In this document: positions 10,006 to 25,561 of the stretch, piece after piece
Numbering within the stretch: the first letter of the stretch is position 1
How the letters are laid out: every line of letters starts with the position of its first letter
IMG/VR virus record: IMGVR_UViG_3300045049_000089
Location: 1 to 40,014 of that record
Length of the DNA stretch: 40,014 nt
Strand: one strand, 5' to 3'
DNA from: a virus
Translations under genes and position numbers: made by a program
The notes under the pieces: generated by a model
Databases searched by the model: none
The model's input: the letters and a program-made list of their open reading frames with translations, nothing else
Told to the model about the DNA's origin: nothing

Positions 10006-10328
10006 CTGAGCGAGCCCTGAGCCTGAAGGAGGCAGCCGCGCTGCTCGGTCTATCCTACTCGACCGTCTACGCGCACAAGATCGAGATGGGCTTTTTCCAG
10101 GTGGGCAATCAATGGCGCGTATGGCCTGACAAGTTGAAGTCCGCGACCGAGTACAATCCAGACCGATCGGCGCGGGACGACGAAAGAAGGAGCAAAAAAT
10201 GTCGATCCGAAAGCGTAACGGCTCGGACATCTGGCACGTTGACATCCGCGCGCCAGGCGGCGGCCGAATTAGACAATCTACTGGCACCACCAACCGAAAG
10301 GAGGCTCAGGAGTATCACGACAAGCTGA
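10002..10328 (+). CDS. xis: Excisionase-like DNA-binding protein
   Basis: ATG at 10002 overlaps the previous stop. 108 residues with a winged-helix/HTH_17-like start (LSLKEAAALLGLSYSTVYAH) and a following wing (GFFQVGNQWRVWP), as in MerR-like excisionases. The last ~43 residues are read over the start of the integrase gene in another frame. Its position directly before int supports a directionality factor. A general regulator of int is also possible. Confidence 0.65.
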   Translation: MTERALSLKEAAALLGLSYSTVYAHKIEMGFFQVGNQWRVWPDKLKSATEYNPDRSARDDERRSKKCRSESVTARTSGTLTSARQAAAELDNLLAPPTERRLRSITTS

Positions 10329-11260
10329 AGCACGATCTGTGGCGGGTCGCAAAGCTTGGAGAGAAACCGAAGCGGACATTCGACGAGGCGGCCCTGCGTT
10401 TTCTGAAGGAGAAAGCCGAGCAGCCGGACTATGGTAACAAAGTGCTGCACATCCGTCATTTCCGCAGCATGTTCGCCGGCCGCGATCTAGGTTCGATCAC
10501 GCGCGATGAGGTGTACGAGGCGCTCCCCGAAGTGAATCGGCGCAAGAAAGAAGTCGTGCCGGTGAGCCGGGCCACGAAGAACCTATACCTGAGCACGATC
10601 CGCTCGATGCTGAACATGGCGGCCGACGAATGGGGATGGATTGCGAGCGCGCCGAAGCTGCCCAACCTCGCGATATCGAACAAACGTATTCGCTGGATCA
10701 CGCGTGAGGAAGCGCAGCGCCTGCTGTCGTCGATCAGGACCGAGTGGATGCGCGATATCACGACGCTCGGCTTTGCGACTGGCCTTCGGCAATCGAACCT
10801 GCTGCACCTCGAATGGGGGCAAGTCGATCTGGTCAAGCGCCGTGCTTGGATCCACCCGGACCAGGCGAAGGCGCGCAAGCCGATCGGCGTGCCGCTGAAC
10901 AACGAGGCCGTCGAGGTTATCCGCCGGCAGATCGGGAAGCACCAGGAACGCGTCTTCTCACGCCGCGGCAAGCCGATTCCTCGATGGGATAGGGCGCAGT
11001 GGGAGCGCGCAGTAGCGCGGGCCGGCATCGAGCATTTCCGGTTCCATGACGTGCGACACACCTGGGCAAGCTGGCACGTGCAGAGCGGGACGCCCCTGAA
11101 TCGGTTGATGGAGCTGGGTGGATGGTCGAAGTACGAGCACGTTTTGCGGTACGCGCACCTTGCGCCGGACCATCTCGCAGAGCACGCGGCGACGGTCACA
11201 ATTTGGGCACAAGGACCAACCGAGGAAGCCGAGGAAAGCGCGCAAAGCCTTGTGGCATAA
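10199..11260 (+). CDS. int: Tyrosine-recombinase integrase
   Basis: 353 residues, the usual length for lambda-type integrases. An N-terminal arm-binding region (about 1-60) and a SAM-like core-binding domain (about 60-150) precede the catalytic domain. Catalytic residues visible are Arg197 (ATGLRQSN), Lys near 224-227, His283 and Arg286 in HDVRH, Trp309 (LGGW, in place of the usual second His) and Tyr318 (LRYAHL). ATG at 10199 has GAAGGAG upstream. Mediates site-specific integration; the probable attP follows directly. Confidence 0.95.
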   Translation: MSIRKRNGSDIWHVDIRAPGGGRIRQSTGTTNRKEAQEYHDKLKHDLWRVAKLGEKPKRTFDEAALRFLKEKAEQPDYGNKVLHIRHFRSMFAGRDLGSITRDEVYEALPEVNRRKKEVVPVSRATKNLYLSTIRSMLNMAADEWGWIASAPKLPNLAISNKRIRWITREEAQRLLSSIRTEWMRDITTLGFATGLRQSNLLHLEWGQVDLVKRRAWIHPDQAKARKPIGVPLNNEAVEVIRRQIGKHQERVFSRRGKPIPRWDRAQWERAVARAGIEHFRFHDVRHTWASWHVQSGTPLNRLMELGGWSKYEHVLRYAHLAPDHLAEHAATVTIWAQGPTEEAEESAQSLVA

Positions 11261-16016: not shown

Positions 16017-16250
16017 ATGCTGTTTGTATTTGTGCGGGAGCATTGGCTGCTCTCGATCATCGTCATTTTCATCGGTGGCATCCTATGGGGCATTTACGAG
16101 GCTGCGACGGCTAACCCCTACGACCGCGGCTGGGACGACCTGCCGACGCAAAGCGGCAGCGAGCGCCTGCTGCGATCCATTGACGGGACCGGCCGCACGA
16201 GCGTTCAGGTAAGGAAGGAGGGCCTCGGGGTTAAGAAGAAAGTCCGATAG
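16017..16250 (+). CDS. Plus-strand small membrane protein within the late region (77 aa)
   Basis: A plus-strand frame with an ideal ribosome-binding site: AAGGAG at 16005-16010, 6 nt before the ATG. The 77 residues comprise a short N terminus, one strong membrane helix (about residues 10-27) and a basic cytoplasmic tail. It overlaps the 3' end of the minus-strand transglycosylase gene by 168 bp. No good promoter is seen. A prophage-expressed exclusion protein is possible, but a chance frame cannot be excluded. Confidence 0.45.
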   Translation: MLFVFVREHWLLSIIVIFIGGILWGIYEAATANPYDRGWDDLPTQSGSERLLRSIDGTGRTSVQVRKEGLGVKKKVR

Positions 16251-18485
16251 CTGGGCGTTTAGGCGATTACCGACCATTTGGCCGACTTTCCCGATACCGC
16301 TGGCGACGCCGAGCCCGGCCCACGGATGCCCCGCCGCAGCCACGGCGCCCCCCGCCAGAAGACGGCCGAGATTGGTACTTCCTCCGTAGGATGGACCGTA
16401 CAGATTGCGAGCCAACCAACCATCGGCCGCAATGTTGTAGGCCGTATCGCTGCCGGGCGATTTCAATGAGTTCGAGATCGTTGCGCGCTGCAAGTCGCGC
16501 CCCACGTTTTCCAGAGCATCTTGCGCCGATGGCTCAATACCGAACTCTTGGTTTTTGAGAGCCCGCGCCAGCGCCGTCGCATAAGGGCCGGCCTGTAATA
16601 CAGGCTGTTGATTGACGTTCGCGCTGCGCCCAAGACTCGACATCGCGTTCGCAACCTCTTGCCCGGCGCTCATCGTATTAACGGGAACACTGGCCTGCGC
16701 ATACGCCGCGCGCGCCGCGTCGATCGCCGGGATATTCTGCGATCCCCACTGGTCGATCGCGTTGGCTGTTTTGGTCAAAGCGCGAACCTGCTGAGCTGAA
16801 CCGTTGCGCTGAGCGACGCCAATTTGATCTCGCATGGCTCGACCGAGATAGTCGAGCGCTTGACCTGAAATAGGCTGTTTAGATGCCGTTGGAAACGAAA
16901 GCGATACGCCTTCATCTGCAGCCAGCCTTACGGCGTCATCCATCGCGCTTTTTACGGCAGGCCGGGAAAATAGGCTAGTGAGCGGCGCATCTGCTGCCGC
17001 CCATGAATTGTTCACGTTGTCATAAAGGGGCGCCGTGGCGGTCAATCGAGCCCGCTCGGCCGCCTGAATATCAGCCGGAGTGCCGGCGACCCCGTTGATG
17101 GCGGCCCATCTGGCTTCGTTGTTGTCGAGTGCGCGCTGTTCAAGCGCTGTGCGGATCTGAGGAACGTTCCCCGCAGCCTTTTCGGTCTGCAACAAAACCG
17201 GGCTTCCTGCCACTTGAGCCGTCGTCGGCATCGAGCCGCGCACGAACTGCGGTGCGCTCGCGATGTTCTGCGCGACATTCCCCGCCTCATCGCCTACGGC
17301 GTTCGCCAAGCCTTCACCGACGACGCCTTGCGGGTTGATGATCGGCCGCACGGCGCCATAGAGATTCGAGCCGATCGCTTTCCCCGCTGCCGCTGCTGCC
17401 GGCATCGCGACACCAAGCGCCGCGCCAGTCCCGACGTTACGCGCGTCCTGCGGCCCGACAGGCTGATTTGGGTCAATCGGCGCTCCGGTCGCCATGATCC
17501 CGCCATTCACGGCGTTTCCGAGTGCAGCCCCGATCGCGCGCCCGACCGGCGCGACTGCATTCGGCGTAAGGCGCGTTATCCCAGCGCGAACGGCGTTACC
17601 GGGAGCCATCGCGCCCGACATAGGGAGCAGCATCGGCGCAACGAATGCCGCGGCCTTCTCGCCGGGCGACGCGGTCTGTGAGAACTGCTGATCTGCCTGC
17701 GCCTGCGTCGCCGTATCGCGCGCGGCGACATCAGCCGGGAAAAAAGGGAGATGGCGCTCGGCGAAGTTCGCCGCGTTGTTGAACATGCTTCCAACGCCGT
17801 GCGCCCCGGCGCGCGCGATTTGCCCGAGTTGAGAGAGCGTATCGGGCGATGCGCCGCCGGCGGCTAGATCCTGCGCTTGTGCTGCCTGCGCCTGTTGTGC
17901 GCCGCTCGATGCGCTACTTGGCGAAACTACGGGCGCTTGTGCGGCCGGCGCTTTTCCGCTCGCAATCCCTTGCGCCATTGCGAGAATAGGATCGGACGTG
18001 GCGGCCGTCGGTGCTGCACTAGGGGCCGCGGAAGGCGAGCCGCCCTTCTGAATCGACTGCGCCATGGCCAAGACCGGATCGGCGCCCTGCGGCGCTTCCT
18101 GCGCGGCGGCCGGCGCGCCCTGCTTCATCTGCCCGAAGATGCCCGACACCTGATCGACATACTGCGAGGTTTTAGGGCCCCACAGTTTTTGATTCGGGCC
18201 AGCGAAATGCGCAGCTACCGCATCGTCGACGTTTCCGTTGAAGCGCTGCAGATTCTCTGCAAACATCTTCGCCGCCGCCGGAATGGCTTGCTGCGGATCA
18301 AGCGGATTAATGCCATAGGATTTGGCCGTAGCGGGAGTGAAGCCCATGAGGCCCGACGCGCCGCTCGCGGGATTCACGGCCGTCGGGTTCATCGACGATT
18401 CCTTCATCGCAATCGCGCGCAGGATCGTCGGGTCGACGCCATATTGCTGCCCGGCAGCTTGAAAAATGGGGGTGAAGTCAGGCAT
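16083..18485 (-). CDS. DNA-ejection protein with lytic transglycosylase domain
   Basis: 800 residues. Residues ~1-125 are an SLT domain, with catalytic Glu29 in MKESSMNP and the downstream GLMGFTPATAKSYGI motif. Ala/Pro-rich linkers follow (about 125-230), then a long mostly helical part with small hydrophobic patches. This is the build of podovirus internal virion proteins that cross the cell wall ahead of the DNA. ATG at 18485 overlaps the previous stop (TGATG). Confidence 0.8.
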   Translation of the reverse strand: MPDFTPIFQAAGQQYGVDPTILRAIAMKESSMNPTAVNPASGASGLMGFTPATAKSYGINPLDPQQAIPAAAKMFAENLQRFNGNVDDAVAAHFAGPNQKLWGPKTSQYVDQVSGIFGQMKQGAPAAAQEAPQGADPVLAMAQSIQKGGSPSAAPSAAPTAATSDPILAMAQGIASGKAPAAQAPVVSPSSASSGAQQAQAAQAQDLAAGGASPDTLSQLGQIARAGAHGVGSMFNNAANFAERHLPFFPADVAARDTATQAQADQQFSQTASPGEKAAAFVAPMLLPMSGAMAPGNAVRAGITRLTPNAVAPVGRAIGAALGNAVNGGIMATGAPIDPNQPVGPQDARNVGTGAALGVAMPAAAAAGKAIGSNLYGAVRPIINPQGVVGEGLANAVGDEAGNVAQNIASAPQFVRGSMPTTAQVAGSPVLLQTEKAAGNVPQIRTALEQRALDNNEARWAAINGVAGTPADIQAAERARLTATAPLYDNVNNSWAAADAPLTSLFSRPAVKSAMDDAVRLAADEGVSLSFPTASKQPISGQALDYLGRAMRDQIGVAQRNGSAQQVRALTKTANAIDQWGSQNIPAIDAARAAYAQASVPVNTMSAGQEVANAMSSLGRSANVNQQPVLQAGPYATALARALKNQEFGIEPSAQDALENVGRDLQRATISNSLKSPGSDTAYNIAADGWLARNLYGPSYGGSTNLGRLLAGGAVAAAGHPWAGLGVASGIGKVGQMVGNRLNAQLSDFLLNPEALLPYLNARAAGPVNGSQQALAAALRRQVVPAAVVGVSRRSLVNAP

Positions 18486-20149
18486 CAGAAGGCTCCCATC
18501 GATTGCATCGCCTTGTACGACTTCATGAAATCGTCGAGCTTGCCCTGCTTCTTGAGGTCGGTCAGATAGGCCTGTTGATCGGCAGCATTCGGCATCGACC
18601 GAACCATCATCACGTCAGGGCTATAGATGCGGTTCCATTGAGCCTCGAACTGCGGATAGTTGACCGTGCTCTGGCCGTTCTGATTGAGGAATGCCTGTGC
18701 GGCCTGATACTTCGCCTGCACGCCGGCCTGCTGCCCACGAACATACTGGATGGCGTAACGCAGCGCTTGCGGATTCATCGCTTCAGTATTCGGCTGACCG
18801 TGCGAGAACGCTTCGAAACGCGCATCCGAGCCGTTATACCCGCTCGCCGAGGCCGCCTGGGCATTCGCATTCGCGAGGAATTTCTGCAAGCTCTGGTAGC
18901 CGGTCACGTCGCCCTGCATGAGCGGGATGCCGGCAGTATTTAGGCGACCGATGATGTTCGCGCCCAGCGTCGAGCCGGGGCCCGTCGTCACGCCGTCGAG
19001 CAGAGCCTGCTCCGCTTTGTTGTAGCCATCGATCGCCGTCGGAGTCGATGCGGCGGCGCCGCGCAAGGCGTTGAACGAATCGGCGGAGCCTTCTGCCAGC
19101 TTCTCCGCACCAGGGGCGAGCCCGGGCGATACGGCGCCAGAATTAGGCGCTTGATAGCCGCCAAAACGTCCCGAATTTACGGACCCCGATTGTGCCCCGG
19201 GCGCGCGTTGACCCGTGGCGATCCCATATGCCGTCGCATATGCAGGCCTTCCAGTAGCGGTATCGACACCCTTCTGGATATCGAACATTGCGGGACCACT
19301 AGCCTTGGCGGCAGACATTGACCCCTCGACACCGATTGCCCCTGGCTGAGGAACGACTGCTCCGGTGAAATTACCGTTTGCGTCTTGGACCGGCATGCCG
19401 CCTGCCGGAACAGCAGGCATCCATTGCATCTGCCCTGTCGTGCGATTGAGCATATAGCCGCCGGCACGCCCGGCTTGATACTCCGGAGCGAGGGTATTCG
19501 CCAGCGCAGTTTGAGCGATTTGGCGCCCACGCGGCGTACTCGGGTCGATGCCGGCCGCGCGCATCTGCGACACGATATCTGCTTGCTTGTATGCGCCTGC
19601 TTGCGTCTTCCAATATTCGTCCGGCGAATTCAGGTACATCATGGCCGCCTGTTGCACCGGCATGCCGAGCGGATTCATTGGGCCACCGGGAGATAGCATC
19701 CCCGGAGTGCCCTGCGTTTGCCCTAGCTGCCCAGATACCCCGCGAGCCCCAGCAGCCCCGTCATCGAGTACGGGTTGTTCTGCTGGGGCTGACTGAAGAG
19801 GGGATGCATTGCCCCCCATCGCCGGGGCCGAAGCTCCGAAGCCCTGCGTCGGATTGCTGCCGACCAGAGCTTGCCATTGCTGCGCGCCGAGATTGTTCAG
19901 GCCTTGGCCGGCCTGATTGCCCATCTGCGAGCCCATCAATGCCGAGGCCAGTTGAGCAGCCGGGACGGCCCACGACGTGCGCGGCATGACTTGGTAGTTC
20001 TGCGAGCCACCCGATCCAACGGTGCCCTGCTGAGGCCGCTGCGCCAGCGAGTTTTGCATGAGCGCCTGCGCGAGTTGCTGCTGCCGTTGCAGGTCATAGA
20101 GCGATCCTTGATACTGCGGGAGGACCGCCATCCCGCCGATGTTAGGCAT
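18485..20149 (-). CDS. Internal virion / ejection protein (554 aa)
   Basis: 554 residues, rich in Gln, Ala and Gly, beginning with a Gln-rich helix (YDLQRQQQLAQALMQ) and ending helical. Low-complexity central part. Placed between the transglycosylase ejection protein and the diiron-oxidase-like gene. The role follows from the P22/N4-like pattern of three clustered ejection proteins, not from a motif. Confidence 0.65.
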   Translation of the reverse strand: MPNIGGMAVLPQYQGSLYDLQRQQQLAQALMQNSLAQRPQQGTVGSGGSQNYQVMPRTSWAVPAAQLASALMGSQMGNQAGQGLNNLGAQQWQALVGSNPTQGFGASAPAMGGNASPLQSAPAEQPVLDDGAAGARGVSGQLGQTQGTPGMLSPGGPMNPLGMPVQQAAMMYLNSPDEYWKTQAGAYKQADIVSQMRAAGIDPSTPRGRQIAQTALANTLAPEYQAGRAGGYMLNRTTGQMQWMPAVPAGGMPVQDANGNFTGAVVPQPGAIGVEGSMSAAKASGPAMFDIQKGVDTATGRPAYATAYGIATGQRAPGAQSGSVNSGRFGGYQAPNSGAVSPGLAPGAEKLAEGSADSFNALRGAAASTPTAIDGYNKAEQALLDGVTTGPGSTLGANIIGRLNTAGIPLMQGDVTGYQSLQKFLANANAQAASASGYNGSDARFEAFSHGQPNTEAMNPQALRYAIQYVRGQQAGVQAKYQAAQAFLNQNGQSTVNYPQFEAQWNRIYSPDVMMVRSMPNAADQQAYLTDLKKQGKLDDFMKSYKAMQSMGAF

Positions 20150-20723
20150 GTGAGCCTCCGAATTTCGCGACCGCGGCGCGAATGTAAAAAACCGTTTGGA
20201 CGGCGTTCTGCTTCACCAATTCGCGTCGATTCACATCGAGCGCCTCAATCTGAGCGACGATCGCCGGCCCATGCACGGCATCGTTTTCTGCGTGATAGCG
20301 CAGCGTTCGGCACAAGCCCTTTCCGTGGATTCTCTCGACCTCATCGAGATAGCCCAGCGGCATCGAAAAGCCTTCAAGCACGAGCATGTAGCCGAGCAGA
20401 GCGCAGGCGTCGACATACCGAATGAGGTAGTGCTGGGAGCCCGCCATTGCGACGGCTTCCGGCGAGATGGGCATTGCCCGCACGTCGAGCTCGACGCCGG
20501 CGAGATCATCCTCGAGCCATTGAGCATGCCCCCTTTCATCTTCAAGATGGTCAATGAAAAAGTCCTGAAGGTCGCCCGTCGAATGCGCGATTGCCTCGCG
20601 CAAAAGGTCCTCGCTCGCGATCATCAACTGATGATCGAAAATGAGATTGGCGAGAAAACTCATGCGGTCGCGCAAATCCAGAGAGGGCATGATCTGGCGC
20701 AATGACTTGATGAATTCGTGCAT
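20142..20723 (-). CDS. Heme-oxygenase-like diiron oxidase family protein
   Basis: 193 residues, all-helical. Three motifs match the iron-containing redox enzyme/HDO family: His59-x3-Glu63-x2-His66 (DHLEDERGHAQWL), Glu117 (YMLVLEGFSMPL), and His144-x3-Asp148-x2-His151 (YHAENDAVHGPAI). They are spaced as on the core helices of such enzymes, so the metal site looks intact. Family members do N-oxygenation, desaturation, C-C cleavage or ring formation on small molecules or amino acids. No phage role is known to me. ATG at 20723; it overlaps the next gene by 8 bp and lies 2 bp from the previous one, so it is fully embedded in the virion operon and presumably made late. Alternative: a degenerate fold reused as a virion part. 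Confidence 0.75.
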   Translation of the reverse strand: MHEFIKSLRQIMPSLDLRDRMSFLANLIFDHQLMIASEDLLREAIAHSTGDLQDFFIDHLEDERGHAQWLEDDLAGVELDVRAMPISPEAVAMAGSQHYLIRYVDACALLGYMLVLEGFSMPLGYLDEVERIHGKGLCRTLRYHAENDAVHGPAIVAQIEALDVNRRELVKQNAVQTVFYIRAAVAKFGGSHA

Positions 20724-20725
20724 GG

Positions 20726-21667
20726 TCAGTACATCATGATCGCCATCGCAGCCATCGACGCCATGCCGCCGATTTCCTGCGTGGTTTGGTTGGAACTCGC
20801 CACGTCGGCGTTGTGACCAGCGAGTTGCCCCTGATAGGCATTGTTCATATAGCTCGCAATGTCGGATGCGTTCGCCGACGACGGGGCAGTGCCGGTGTAG
20901 CCAGGAATCATGCTCGCGATCGTCTGCAGGTTCGAATACGGCGCTTGTCCAATGCCCACCGTTTGGCCGAGCAAGCCCCCCTGCGTATTGATGCTGTTGA
21001 TCTGATTCTGCAGGTTTTGCGAGCCGACCTGAGAGCCGGTGAGCACCGCGTTGTTGATCGCCTGTTGCTGCTGCTGCCCCTGCGCGCGCTGCAGATTCGA
21101 ATATGCGTTGTCATAGGCCTCGGAGCCAGGGGCAAGTCCCTGATTCGCAAGTTGCGCCTGCAGCGACGTTTGCTGCTGCTGAAATTGCGGCTGCAGATAG
21201 CCCATCGTCGACGCGTAGGCAGCTTGCTGACCTTGCGCCTGGGCCTGCTGTGCGGCTTGCGGGCTCAGGCTCCCGGCGAGGCCATACAACCCGCTCAGGG
21301 CAGTCGAATTGATCCGGCCGCTTTGCCCCGTCTGCCCCAGCAGATTATCGAGCTGTCCCTGCAATTGAGGGTTCGCTGAAATCTGCGTGCTAAAAATCGG
21401 CGCGCCGTCGGGCGCGGTGCCGGTCTGAACCGTCGTTTGCGATCCAAACGGGTTCGAGTAGTCGTTGAGGTTGAGGTACTTGTTGAACTCAGCGGTTTGC
21501 TGATTCTGCTGAGTCTGCGCGCCCGCCGTCGCGTAGGGATCGGGAGGCGCGGGTGCATCGCCACCCTTTCCTCCTTCGAGCGTGGCCGCCCGGTTGCGCC
21601 CGAGCGCTTTACGAAACGCGCTCGACGGCAAATCCGGGCCGTCGCAGGTAATCCAATAATGCCGCAT
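20726..21667 (-). CDS. Gln-rich internal virion protein (313 aa)
   Basis: 313 residues with Gln/Ala/Asn-rich, helical low-complexity sequence. A GGKGGDAPAPPDP segment near residue 33 is typical of the N terminus of podovirus ejection proteins. As called, the start (ATG 21667) overlaps the GNAT gene by 59 bp. A strong GGAGG lies later, but no in-frame start follows it, so the upstream ATG is kept. Probable smallest ejection protein. Confidence 0.7.
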   Translation of the reverse strand: MRHYWITCDGPDLPSSAFRKALGRNRAATLEGGKGGDAPAPPDPYATAGAQTQQNQQTAEFNKYLNLNDYSNPFGSQTTVQTGTAPDGAPIFSTQISANPQLQGQLDNLLGQTGQSGRINSTALSGLYGLAGSLSPQAAQQAQAQGQQAAYASTMGYLQPQFQQQQTSLQAQLANQGLAPGSEAYDNAYSNLQRAQGQQQQQAINNAVLTGSQVGSQNLQNQINSINTQGGLLGQTVGIGQAPYSNLQTIASMIPGYTGTAPSSANASDIASYMNNAYQGQLAGHNADVASSNQTTQEIGGMASMAAMAIMMY

Positions 21668-22094
21668 GGTATTTGCCTTCGATGAATCGGCATTCGCTTT
21701 TCAGCATGCCGTAGACGATCAAGTCCGTTCCATCGGTGCAAGCCGCGCGGAGTTGTCCTTCACGCTTGAACCCCAAGTGCTCGTCGAAACGCTGAGCGTC
21801 GACGTTATCGGCCCGCACAAGGCCCGTGATCCTGCTGCATCCCAACTGCAGAAATGGGTAACGGAAACATGCTGCCAGATAAGGCGCTGTCAGCCAATGC
21901 CGCGAGCCATCGGATGCGACATGCGCGAGGATATTGCTGCCCGCACGCATGTTGTAGACGGTGCCGGCCACGAGTTCGCCATCGACCTCGAGGCCGATCG
22001 CGGTGAAGAGCTTATAGCCGTCCTGCTCGTCGGTGCGCTCGGCCACCCACCGCATGACGCGCTCGGGCTGGTTCCAGACGATGTGCTTTTTCAC
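21609..22094 (-). CDS. GNAT-type N-acetyltransferase
   Basis: 161 residues. GTG at 22094 overlaps the preceding stop (GTGA); a longer frame lies within the gp10-like gene. GNAT features: a beta strand pair (LEVDGELVAGTVYNM), the helix-strand acetyl-CoA region (PYLAACFRYPFLQLGCSRITGLV), and the terminal NVDAQRFDEHLGFKREGQLR ... YGML pattern. Such genes occur among tail and ejection genes of several phage groups; the substrate is unknown. It is separated from the diiron-oxidase-like gene by one ejection gene. Confidence 0.8.
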   Translation of the reverse strand: MKKHIVWNQPERVMRWVAERTDEQDGYKLFTAIGLEVDGELVAGTVYNMRAGSNILAHVASDGSRHWLTAPYLAACFRYPFLQLGCSRITGLVRADNVDAQRFDEHLGFKREGQLRAACTDGTDLIVYGMLKSECRFIEGKYHAALLDYLRRPGFAVERVS

Positions 22095-23659
22095 AGCACG
22101 CCGCCGTCGGTCATGAGGTAGTCCGTGCTCATCCAAGAGAGCGGCATATCGAGCGCGCTGGCGATCATATGCATCGAAGCGGCGTAGCCGACGCCGGATG
22201 CGTACTCCCAATTCTTGATGGTCTGCATCGCGCCGCCCCACTGAACTTGATCCCATTTCGCTTGATCCCAGAGTGCGCCCCCCTGGGCCGAGAATGTCGT
22301 CGGGGCCGTGGGCGCCGTCTCATCGAAATCGACGTTCAGCAAGATCGACACCCCCGGCGTGCCTGTCGACTGCATGACAGGCCGCACCATCGTCCATTGC
22401 TTGAGCTGATGCGTGCCGAAATAGTTGAAGGCGGGTAGCGCTTCGCCGACGATTTGACCGCCATTGTCGTCCTGCGCAGCAGACCATGCATGCACTACGA
22501 CTCCATTTCCGCCGTAATAGAGGTTGTCGTTGAAGCGCGCCCAGCAGTTCGCCGACCACCCGGTGAAATTGCACCACGCTCCCGTTATCGTGTTCATCAC
22601 ATATTGCTGTTGCTGCCCCGGCGCGATGGGCACATTCAGGAGCAGCGCATTGAGCGGTGGATAGAGCACCATGTCCCAGCCGAAATTTCCGGCATAGGAG
22701 GTCGTCGCCTGCGAAATCGCATTCTGGATCTTATAGCTCAGATCGACCTGCGTATTGACACGCGAAGAAGCGAGCAGGCGCGACAGCGGGGCGAGGCCGT
22801 CCTTGCCGATATAGAGCACATCGCCGCCATACTTCATGAAGCAGCGACTTCCCATCGGCGTGCCGACTTGATAGACGCCAACGAGCGAGAACGAGCTCGA
22901 CTGAGAGGGATCGGTGCCGCCATAGATGGCAATTTCGCCTTCGGTCGTGACGAAGCATAGGTAATCCTGCATCCCGTAGCCACCGTCGACCGTCCAAATC
23001 CCCATCGCCACGAGTGAGCCGCCGCGGCGAAAGATAGCCGTCATCGGGAACTGCGCGGTAGCACCCCCCACACTATTGACCGGCAAATAGTAGGCCGTCA
23101 GCGACGATTTCTGGATGAACCAGACGCGCGAGGCGTATTCCTGAATGTCCGAGAGCGTCGTCGGATCGACGCCTGTAATCGAAATGCCTGACGATGACGA
23201 TGTGATTTGCTGCCACGTCGACCCGTTGTAGACGTAGTAGCCGTCGACGCCATTGACGATTGCGAGATAGGGACCGGCGCTCGTCGAGAAGTTCAGGTGC
23301 TTCCACTTGTCGCTCGAAAGCGAGCCAACGACTGGCGCACCCACCGCACCGCCGGTCGTGACATCGAAAATAGAGCCGCCGGACGCCGCAAATAGCTTCC
23401 CGCTGCCCGATGCGGGATTGAACGGCATGAGCGAGTTGACCTGATTGCCGAGGCCGGTCGACCACGTTTGCGAGCCGCTGCGTAGGATCACGTCCGATGG
23501 CCGGGGAAACCAATTCGTGAGGATCACCGCATCCGTTGCCGGCATGTTGGCAATCGAGTCGCGCGCATTCCATCCACCGATCGGCGCAGGCACGCTCATC
23601 GTGCGCGCCCGCTGCATCTTCCCCATGGGGGTGACTGGCGCGACAGGCCGGCGCATCAT
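22091..23659 (-). CDS. P22 gp10-like tail/DNA-stabilisation protein
   Basis: 522 residues, beta-rich with repeating blades (for example VILTNWFPRPSDVILRSGSQ near the start, DVLYIGKDGLAPLSRL mid-sequence). The N-terminal GGWNARDSIANMPATDAV plus PRPSDVILRSG pattern matches gp10-type proteins that close the portal channel beneath the adaptor. ATG at 23659 overlaps the previous stop and has GGAG upstream; the extra three codons from a TTG are rejected. Confidence 0.7.
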   Translation of the reverse strand: MMRRPVAPVTPMGKMQRARTMSVPAPIGGWNARDSIANMPATDAVILTNWFPRPSDVILRSGSQTWSTGLGNQVNSLMPFNPASGSGKLFAASGGSIFDVTTGGAVGAPVVGSLSSDKWKHLNFSTSAGPYLAIVNGVDGYYVYNGSTWQQITSSSSGISITGVDPTTLSDIQEYASRVWFIQKSSLTAYYLPVNSVGGATAQFPMTAIFRRGGSLVAMGIWTVDGGYGMQDYLCFVTTEGEIAIYGGTDPSQSSSFSLVGVYQVGTPMGSRCFMKYGGDVLYIGKDGLAPLSRLLASSRVNTQVDLSYKIQNAISQATTSYAGNFGWDMVLYPPLNALLLNVPIAPGQQQQYVMNTITGAWCNFTGWSANCWARFNDNLYYGGNGVVVHAWSAAQDDNGGQIVGEALPAFNYFGTHQLKQWTMVRPVMQSTGTPGVSILLNVDFDETAPTAPTTFSAQGGALWDQAKWDQVQWGGAMQTIKNWEYASGVGYAASMHMIASALDMPLSWMSTDYLMTDGGVL

Positions 23660-24393
23660 GCGTTCCAACTCCCGGAAGGGACAAGGATGCCCGGATAGAT
23701 GTCGTACTTCACGTCACCCATGTTGATCACGTCTTTGGTGCCGTCGCGCGCCTTCGCATCCTGCAGCATGGTCTCGTAATCGACGAAATCCTGCGCGTAG
23801 TCGAGGCCCTTGGCCTTGCGCCAGCGCCACTCGACGCCGAGCTTGAAGAGATCATCGCGCAAGATCAAGGTGTCAGTGTCGGCCATAAATTTGACCTGCG
23901 GCATACCGCTCACAGACTGGCACCATGCGCGCGTTGTGTATTGGAACCACACATGTTGCCCCGCCGTGGGGAACGGGATGAACAGGATATTGCCGCCACG
24001 AATCTGAAATTGATTCCACGGCCCCTGCATGACCATTGCTTTCAACTGCTCCCAGCGCTGCGGCGTCATCGGACCGAACACAGGGCGCCGCAGATCGCGA
24101 TTCCACATCGTGTCGTTGATTATGTTCTTCATGTACGGCGCGATTGTGGAGAGAGGGCCCTGGTTTTCCTGCGCCAGCGTCACGAAATTCGCCTCGAGAC
24201 AGAGCGACTGCCAATCGTATTCGTTCGTCACCCATTCCCCCTCCTTATTGCATAGGGCGAGCAATTGAAGCACGGAGGGATCAGTCGAGGTGGCTGCGAC
24301 GCTCGGGATCGGGATATTCAGGCGCGCAGCCAAATCCTGGATGATGGAGAGACAACTGACGGTGCCGGTTACGGCTTGGGTAACGATCGTCAT
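23656..24393 (-). CDS. Head-tail adaptor (gp4-like)
   Basis: 245 residues. The N-terminal pattern SIIQDLAARLNIPIPSVAAT, followed by LLALCNKEGEWVTNEYDWQ, is characteristic of podovirus adaptor proteins that bind beneath the portal. The second half is beta-rich, ending in a conserved-looking WRWRKAKGLDYAQDFVDYE segment. ATG at 24393 taken. Adjacent to the gp10-like protein as in P22-type neck assemblies. Confidence 0.7.
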   Translation of the reverse strand: MTIVTQAVTGTVSCLSIIQDLAARLNIPIPSVAATSTDPSVLQLLALCNKEGEWVTNEYDWQSLCLEANFVTLAQENQGPLSTIAPYMKNIINDTMWNRDLRRPVFGPMTPQRWEQLKAMVMQGPWNQFQIRGGNILFIPFPTAGQHVWFQYTTRAWCQSVSGMPQVKFMADTDTLILRDDLFKLGVEWRWRKAKGLDYAQDFVDYETMLQDAKARDGTKDVINMGDVKYDIYPGILVPSGSWNA

Positions 24394-24394
24394 G

Positions 24395-25561
24395 TCAGTT
24401 GTACTCGTAGACGATGACGGCGCCGATCGAAGCGGCGCCACCCGCAGCAGCTACACCAGAACTCCCTCCCGAGGCCGCCCCGCCGCCACCGCCGCCGTAC
24501 CCGGTTCCTGGGTTTCCGGCACCTGACGCGGATCCGCCAACATACATAGCCGATCCACCGCTGCCCAGCTCCGAGTTCCCGCCCGCTCCACCCGAAAGCA
24601 CATTGTTTCCAGAGAGCCCAAGGCCGCCAGACCTTCCGCTCATGTTCGCAATAGCTGTGGCGCCTGAGATCGTGCAAGTAGTAGTGGACGTGCCGCCGCT
24701 TGCGATGACCGCGGTGGCGGTTGCCCCGGTGGAGTTTCCACCACCCCCACCCGGACAGCTGACAATCGATCCGAAAGATGTGGTACCGCCGGAGGCGCCG
24801 CTATTATTGCCGCCGCTTGCGCCTCCGGACCCGGCAGCCCCTATGGTTACAGTTGCTCCCGAGAAAGCGCTCGTAACTTTGGCGGCGGCATAGGATCCGG
24901 AAGCACCACCACCGCCGAAATTTCCGGTACCACTTCCTCCCGCCGCAACGCCAGCGCCTCCTCCGCCACCACCCACAACCTGCACAATGACGCTATTCGT
25001 GCCGGGGGTCGGCGTATATGTGCCGCTCGACGTGAAAATCTGAATGCCGATCAGGCGCCCTGCGACAGCGTTTTGGAACGAGGGGAATGCCGAGGCGCCG
25101 TTCGATGTCAGGACAAAGCCCGCCGTGCTCGGTCCGATCGCCGCAATGCCTCCTGTTCCGTTCCCGGCCAGGATGTTGTATTGCGCAAGCGTGTTGTCGC
25201 CGGTGCCGCCCTGTGCCACCGAAAGCGGCGTCGTCAGGCCGCCGAGCGACGTGATATTGAGGTTCGCGCCAGATGTAGCGACGGACGAGTTGCAGCCGAA
25301 TCCGACCGAATTCGTCCATTGCAGCGCCTGCGCCGCGCCATTGCAACCTGTGACCGTGATCGCAGTTGGGCTAGCGCTCGATCCACTCGCATTGCCTACG
25401 ACCGTATTCGCAGCCTGCGCGGCAAGACTCGGAAGACCGACCTTTCCCGTCGCGGTGAAGGTGCCGAGAACCGTGAGGTTCTGATAGGTCGGCGATGGAT
25501 AGGTCTGGCCGAGCGCAATCAGCGGCAACCAAAGTGCCGCGATGAGGATTCGTTTGAGCAT
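24395..25561 (-). CDS. Tail-fibre protein with signal-like N terminus and Gly-rich tip
   Basis: 388 residues. A signal-peptide-like start (LKRILIAALWLPLIALG) is followed by a collagen-free beta shaft (~20-190) and then about 190 residues of Gly-rich sequence with recurring GGGGG, GSGGASGG and GGSA runs, as in polyglycine-II receptor-binding tips of gp38-type adhesins. It ends IGAVIVYEYN. ATG at 25561; the longer frame lies in the previous gene. Likely host-receptor binding. The secretion-like N terminus is unusual for a virion protein assembled in the cytoplasm. Confidence 0.7.
   Translation of the reverse strand: MLKRILIAALWLPLIALGQTYPSPTYQNLTVLGTFTATGKVGLPSLAAQAANTVVGNASGSSASPTAITVTGCNGAAQALQWTNSVGFGCNSSVATSGANLNITSLGGLTTPLSVAQGGTGDNTLAQYNILAGNGTGGIAAIGPSTAGFVLTSNGASAFPSFQNAVAGRLIGIQIFTSSGTYTPTPGTNSVIVQVVGGGGGGAGVAAGGSGTGNFGGGGASGSYAAAKVTSAFSGATVTIGAAGSGGASGGNNSGASGGTTSFGSIVSCPGGGGGNSTGATATAVIASGGTSTTTCTISGATAIANMSGRSGGLGLSGNNVLSGGAGGNSELGSGGSAMYVGGSASGAGNPGTGYGGGGGGAASGGSSGVAAAGGAASIGAVIVYEYN

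Follow-up and report, generated by a model that had tools for sequence, protein, structure and literature searches.

A putative heme-oxygenase-like diiron oxidase as exchangeable cargo in the ejection cassette of P22-type temperate podoviruses

Heme-oxygenase-like dimetal oxidases (HDOs) perform unusual oxidative chemistry, and their metals are usually held by three histidines and three carboxylates located on three core helices (PMC13108848). Phages have not previously been named as a source of these enzymes. HrmI, UndA and MboA belong to natural-product or hydrocarbon pathways, and none of them is phage-derived; the nitrile synthase AetD, part of the biosynthesis of a cyanobacterial toxin, uses Trp derivatives as substrates and has D76-x2-H79, E140 and H172-x3-E176-x2-H179 as ligands, with H72 nearby (PMC10654658). 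CADD (CT610), the p-aminobenzoate synthase of Chlamydia trachomatis, is self-sacrificing at Tyr27 (PMC11965152). DtpC of Acinetobacter baumannii, encoded on the chromosome beside katE, has an HDO domain and a role in desiccation and oxidative stress; in vivo, its protection against oxidative stress is reported to depend on the ligand residues (PMC13232832). On the phage side, the closest described system is a moron of Bcep22-like phages that encodes a PAPS reductase (BcepIL02 gp67, JC1 gp65) and is flanked by a GNAT/virion-protein pair on one side and by the following virion genes on the other. This is the same slot as the one occupied by the gene described below, although the moron product is a PP-loop enzyme (PF01507), unrelated to HDOs.

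The window analyzed here is a 40,014-nucleotide stretch of viral DNA (IMG/VR record IMGVR_UViG_3300045049_000089). It encodes an integrase (10199-11260, plus strand; phrog_1, E=1.8e-63), a portal and a major head protein, and represents a P22-type podovirus that is temperate, given the integrase. An ORF of 193 codons on the minus strand (20142-20723), with its ATG at 20723 and TAA at 20144-20142, encodes a putative HDO-family diiron oxidase, as assigned from the PF14518 match, an AlphaFold model and ligand conservation. A plus-strand reading of the same interval was ruled out by stops and the absence of an ORF. In close pairs, dN/dS is about 0.06-0.25, indicating purifying selection. In a Pfam scan with E-values up to 1, the sole match was PF14518 ("Iron-containing redox enzyme"), which scored 30.6 bits (gathering cut-off, 28.9; E=3.6e-7), and comparison with PHROGs and NCBIfam returned zero matches. 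A ferritin or bacterioferritin identity was dropped: the phmmer matches were weak and limited to one helix, and the fold search led to the heme-oxygenase bundle.

The AlphaFold (AF2) model, which is metal-free and was built from 16 aligned relatives, has a mean pLDDT of 94.1 and a pTM of 0.89, and the protein is predicted to form a seven-helix heme-oxygenase-like bundle. Foldseek against the PDB gave as the top match 3dde (E 7.9e-5), that is, Sden_3740 of Shewanella denitrificans, a PF14518-like protein with the heme-oxygenase-like fold, and CADD was matched at a TM of 0.78. The VIA-align Z-scores were 20.6 for 3dde (rmsd 2.5 over 190 residues), 18.6 for CADD, 17.4 for HrmI and 16.1 for UndA, with 189-191 residues covered in all four; HrmI has an extra N-terminal part. 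An HDO bundle, and not an unlike fold, is thus what the model returned, with CADD and UndA among the structural matches, in agreement with the expectation of an earlier note made from the sequence of this DNA. A profile of phage and bacterial members reached 3dde (2.8e-13), CADD (0.0066) and the acetylenase MboA (E=0.0095), with the E-x2-H and H-x3-D-type helices in register. Sden_3740, the best PDB sequence match by profile, carries H-x3-E-x2-H in its first core helix, as does the phage protein, but is bacterial, 239 aa long and only 10% identical. CADD shares the H-x3-D-x2-H helix by profile. A search of BFVD for viral structural relatives found none at E up to 0.001.

Because TenA and heme oxygenase chains likewise reach Z-scores of 16-18 against the model in VIA-align, the fold by itself does not separate the phage protein from these cousins; the sequence does. 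A heme oxygenase, a TenA thiaminase or a CADD-type pABA synthase, instead of a substrate-oxidizing HDO, would be compatible with this common fold, but is highly improbable considering that matches to PF01126 (heme oxygenase), PF03070 (TenA) and TIGR04305 (CADD/PabS) are all absent, that no Cys position is conserved among the phage relatives, and that the first Tyr is residue 99, leaving no counterpart of Tyr27 (or Tyr25) of CADD. With the N-terminal Tyr missing, CADD-like self-sacrifice was rejected.

Every residue of the ligand pattern listed in the earlier note, H59-x3-E63-x2-H66, E117 and H144-x3-D148-x2-H151, is present in the protein. The description of this pattern as a full metal-ligand set holds for the six residues E63, H66, E117, H144, D148 and H151 (three histidines and three carboxylates), which are retained in 41/41 phage relatives and account for six of the 11 positions, among 193, that are invariant in these phages. 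It does not hold for H59, which is found in 40/41 phage relatives and gives way to Tyr or Arg in several bacterial members, others keeping His; because of these replacements, H59 appears to be an extra histidine, not an obligate ligand. When bacterial proteins (from Streptomyces and the order Burkholderiales, 17-32% identical) were added to the alignment, the invariant columns were L27, E63, H66, D73, G111, E117, H144, D148 and H151, so that none of the six ligands was lost in any homolog compared, phage or bacterial. The second-sphere residue Y99 is also invariant in the phage relatives. SznF-type HDOs (3H/4C) take an additional Glu ligand from an auxiliary helix; as regards such a residue, conservation among the phage relatives differs between E38 and E130.

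The ligand set is shared with HrmI, UndA and MboA, the first two of which have the fold in common with the phage protein as well. The in-helix spacing is also that of AetD (H72-x3-D76-x2-H79, E140, H172-x3-E176-x2-H179), where H72 corresponds to H59 (PMC10654658), although overall similarity to AetD is low (Foldseek TM 0.57). The phage protein is, then, a member of the known superfamily of heme-oxygenase-like dimetal oxidases; its diiron chemistry is well supported by homology, and metal binding by the six ligands would be expected from their conservation.

The gene lies inside a virion ejection cassette, as the earlier note had proposed. On the minus strand, the order is a tail tubular A-like tail protein (phrog_6013, 23656-24441), a P22 gp10-like tail/head-closure protein (phrog_5107, 22091-23668), a GNAT-fold protein (phrog_4470, 21609-22256), a virion structural protein that forms the upstream border (phrog_6121, 20726-21667; PHROG E=1.9e-34), the HDO, a 554-aa ejection-type protein that forms the downstream border (18485-20149), and an 800-aa ejection protein with an SLT transglycosylase domain (16083-18485; PF01464, E=1.1e-19; phrog_342, internal virion protein). 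The first three assignments combine PHROG matches with the annotation of Sulfitobacter phage phiGT1, which has the same order: P22 gp10 (Phage_stabilize), a gp14-like GNAT-fold head assembly protein, and injection proteins. The 554-aa protein is assigned from its position, which is that of the phiGT1 injection proteins, and from the same gene order in relatives. The PHROG name of phrog_5107, "amidase" (lysis), is probably wrong; annotated relatives are named tubular tail B, phage stabilization or head closure.

The tight packing that had also been noted is evident on both sides. Only 2 nt separate the phrog_6121 stop from the HDO start (TGAccATG), and the 3' end of the HDO gene overlaps the ATG of the 554-aa gene and contains the GGAGG of that gene, an arrangement from which translational coupling of the HDO to the flanking virion genes is predicted. 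A search for sigma-70-like promoters in 18400-23700 found none, and a lysogenic-conversion moron with its own promoter was accordingly dropped. Given the operon position, the gene packing and the lack of a separate promoter in this interval, the HDO is probably made late, together with the ejection proteins.

Among relatives of the neighboring GNAT-fold protein, to which phrog_4470 attaches the label acyl-CoA N-acyltransferase, only 22/172 have the [RQ]xxGx[GA] acetyl-CoA loop; instead of being a moron enzyme, this protein probably takes part in head assembly, as P22 gp14 does. With an enzyme fold probably turned to assembly two genes away, the HDO, too, could have a metal-binding or structural role without catalysis. 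The six ligands and Y99, however, are invariant, unlike the eroded GNAT motif, and related phages assemble without any HDO, so that we give this possibility very little credence.

The phage relatives were collected in IMG/VR scans, and additional surveys were anchored on the GNAT-fold protein and phrog_5107 and thus not chosen for the HDO; the contigs are often fragments, and ORFs were called mechanically. The search for the same gene in related phages, which the earlier note had suggested, yielded 41 relatives, nearly all with the HDO at one position, between phrog_6121-type and 554-aa-type genes, in a cassette ordered as gp10-like protein, GNAT-fold protein, virion protein, HDO and ejection proteins. 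The sole relative seen with a moved HDO is L008 (1221-3816), where the order is phrog_5107, HDO, GNAT-fold protein. In other phages, the slot contains a PAPS-reductase-family enzyme (PF01507) or a protein that is small or rich in Gly/Ala, or it is vacant; in L046 and L048, the empty site is clean and spans 8-12 nt. Across 87 non-redundant loci, the slot holds an HDO in 28, a PAPS reductase in 15, other proteins in 30 and nothing in 14, the first count including loci that came from HDO searches, so that 28/87 is no estimate of frequency. The HDO and the PAPS reductase never occur together (0/87). Mapped onto the phrog_5107 tree, HDO presence requires 12 changes, at least 10 of them on starred branches. 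The HDO gene is, therefore, accessory cargo that temperate podoviruses of the P22 type exchange, not a fixed virion part.

The nearest phage by phrog_5107 (L045, 86% identical) has no HDO. Its 554-aa and 800-aa counterparts are just 32% and 25% identical to the proteins of the window (18485-20149 and 16083-18485), and because these values are so low despite the close match in phrog_5107, the ejection half of the cassette appears to recombine as a module. In close relatives, the HDO is replaced by a family of Gly/Ala-rich proteins of 250-350 aa (L045, 6373-7128, and the slot ORFs of L058-L076), which probably represents one more ejection or virion protein.

These comparisons bear on the suggestion of the earlier note that the enzyme might modify a virion protein, namely, that it oxidizes a residue of a neighboring ejection protein. 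The predicted translational coupling to the flanking virion genes and the almost invariable location in this cassette would fit such a role. Nevertheless, closely related phages gain or lose the HDO while the flanks stay similar: between L056, which has the HDO, and L076, which does not, the 6121-family proteins are 75% and the 554-aa-family proteins 73% identical, and the 554-aa and SLT proteins of the window align full-length with those of the empty-slot phage L046, at 48% and 57% identity. Distances among the HDOs track phrog_5107 (rho 0.66) as well as they track the flanking virion genes (0.63 and 0.63), and HDOs are known mainly for acting on free amino and fatty acids. We therefore consider modification of a virion protein decidedly doubtful and disfavored as originally worded, the more so as the slot enzyme of phage JC1 is not found in virions. 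Nor do the sister-phage comparisons support an HDO that is obligately paired with particular ejection proteins.

The result on JC1, a related phage, comes from virion mass spectrometry, in which the flanking structural proteins are listed, including gp64, the virion structural protein at the phrog_6121 position, and the slot PAPS reductase and the GNAT-fold protein are absent (PMC9144972). Because of these absences, the slot enzymes are probably cytosolic, with the qualification that this proteome concerns another slot enzyme and may miss minor proteins. The same data weigh against packaging of the HDO in the virion and its delivery to the next host, where it would work early, against a defense or by changing a metabolite. 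Flanking ejection-protein genes and the precedent of internal enzymes in podoviruses (here, the SLT domain) speak for such delivery, but a compact soluble HDO is unlike known ejection proteins, and we regard an ejected enzyme as quite unlikely.

The reading that we favor, with about even confidence, is that of a late-made, O2-activating diiron oxidase with a small-molecule substrate, carried as accessory cargo and probably not present in virions. Under this scheme, E63, H66, E117, H144, D148 and H151 would hold two metals (diiron, possibly Fe/Mn) in the alpha-helical bundle, and the reduced cluster would react with O2 to oxidize a small organic molecule; by comparison with characterized HDOs, an amino acid or some other carboxylate is the most likely substrate. 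Expression through the late virion operon would place the HDO alongside the ejection proteins; it would then act late in infection, in the dying cell, and would probably stay in the cytosol instead of being built into the virion. We infer the small-molecule substrate, the O2 chemistry and the absence from virions from homologs and from the cassette. Production of a small molecule at lysis, the other role that had been suggested earlier, is conceivable. Among candidate benefits of a late oxidase, we rank highest the making or removal of a metabolite ahead of lysis, followed by defense against reactive oxygen species, ejection and, last, modification of a virion protein.

Protection would mean that the enzyme, similarly to DtpC, limits damage by reactive oxygen species to phage DNA or virions late in infection, with no dedicated metabolite. 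Such a function is consistent with the part of DtpC in guarding against oxidative stress, for which the ligand residues are required (PMC13232832), and with the redox-type family of the alternative slot occupant, PAPS_reduct; however, none of the genes identified next to the phage HDO encodes a catalase, OxyR or another stress protein, and many sister phages manage without it, which makes a protective factor rather unlikely. We place at a similarly low level the broader proposal that the HDO belongs to the infection machinery, whether by being packaged and ejected or by oxidizing either an ejection protein or a host metabolite late in infection; the slot would then be a swappable bay for redox enzymes (diiron oxidase or PAPS-reductase-like enzyme) that serve one shared purpose.

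Returning to the favored reading of an accessory small-molecule oxidase, the phage HDOs form a single clade (support 100/100) against the bacterial HDOs sampled, a thin sample to which this monophyly is limited. Four different members, used as queries against 50,697 phage records, found no relative (E up to 0.01), and a fifth gave chance-level matches only. Our literature search for phage-borne HDOs returned none; it did turn up a prophage that integrates next to a bacterial gene for an iron-containing redox enzyme. No match came from isolated-phage records, BFVD or PHROGs. The view of the earlier note that this is not a standard phage part is supported. In the literature searched, we found no description of the phage HDO clade, of where it sits in the ejection cassette, or of a PAPS-reductase-like enzyme taking its place.

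A phage clade in which all ligands are kept across large divergence represents a new pool of HDO enzymes. Because the slot comparison reveals a fixed bay for exchangeable cargo in the P22-type ejection cassette, a moron need not be a lysogeny gene with a promoter of its own but can also be a late gene embedded in a virion operon. The three slot states (vacant, HDO and PAPS reductase) provide natural controls, and one HDO relative (L028), in an integrated prophage of the cultured strain Herminiimonas contaminans Marseille-Q4544, makes the question testable. The neighborhoods of Streptomyces relatives, with their cyclase/AAA regulators, gave no functional lead for the phage enzyme; in four of these (L029, L030, L031 and L032), the HDO gene adjoins a large cyclase/AAA/TPR regulator, forming a conserved pair. 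Slot enzymes of the PAPS reductase family (PF01507) are exemplified by L171 (8783-9478), L206 (6459-7163), L187 (3700-4383) and L020 (16449-17168), and the three metagenomic examples contain a CC...CxxC arrangement that may correspond to the 4Fe-4S cluster of APS reductases.
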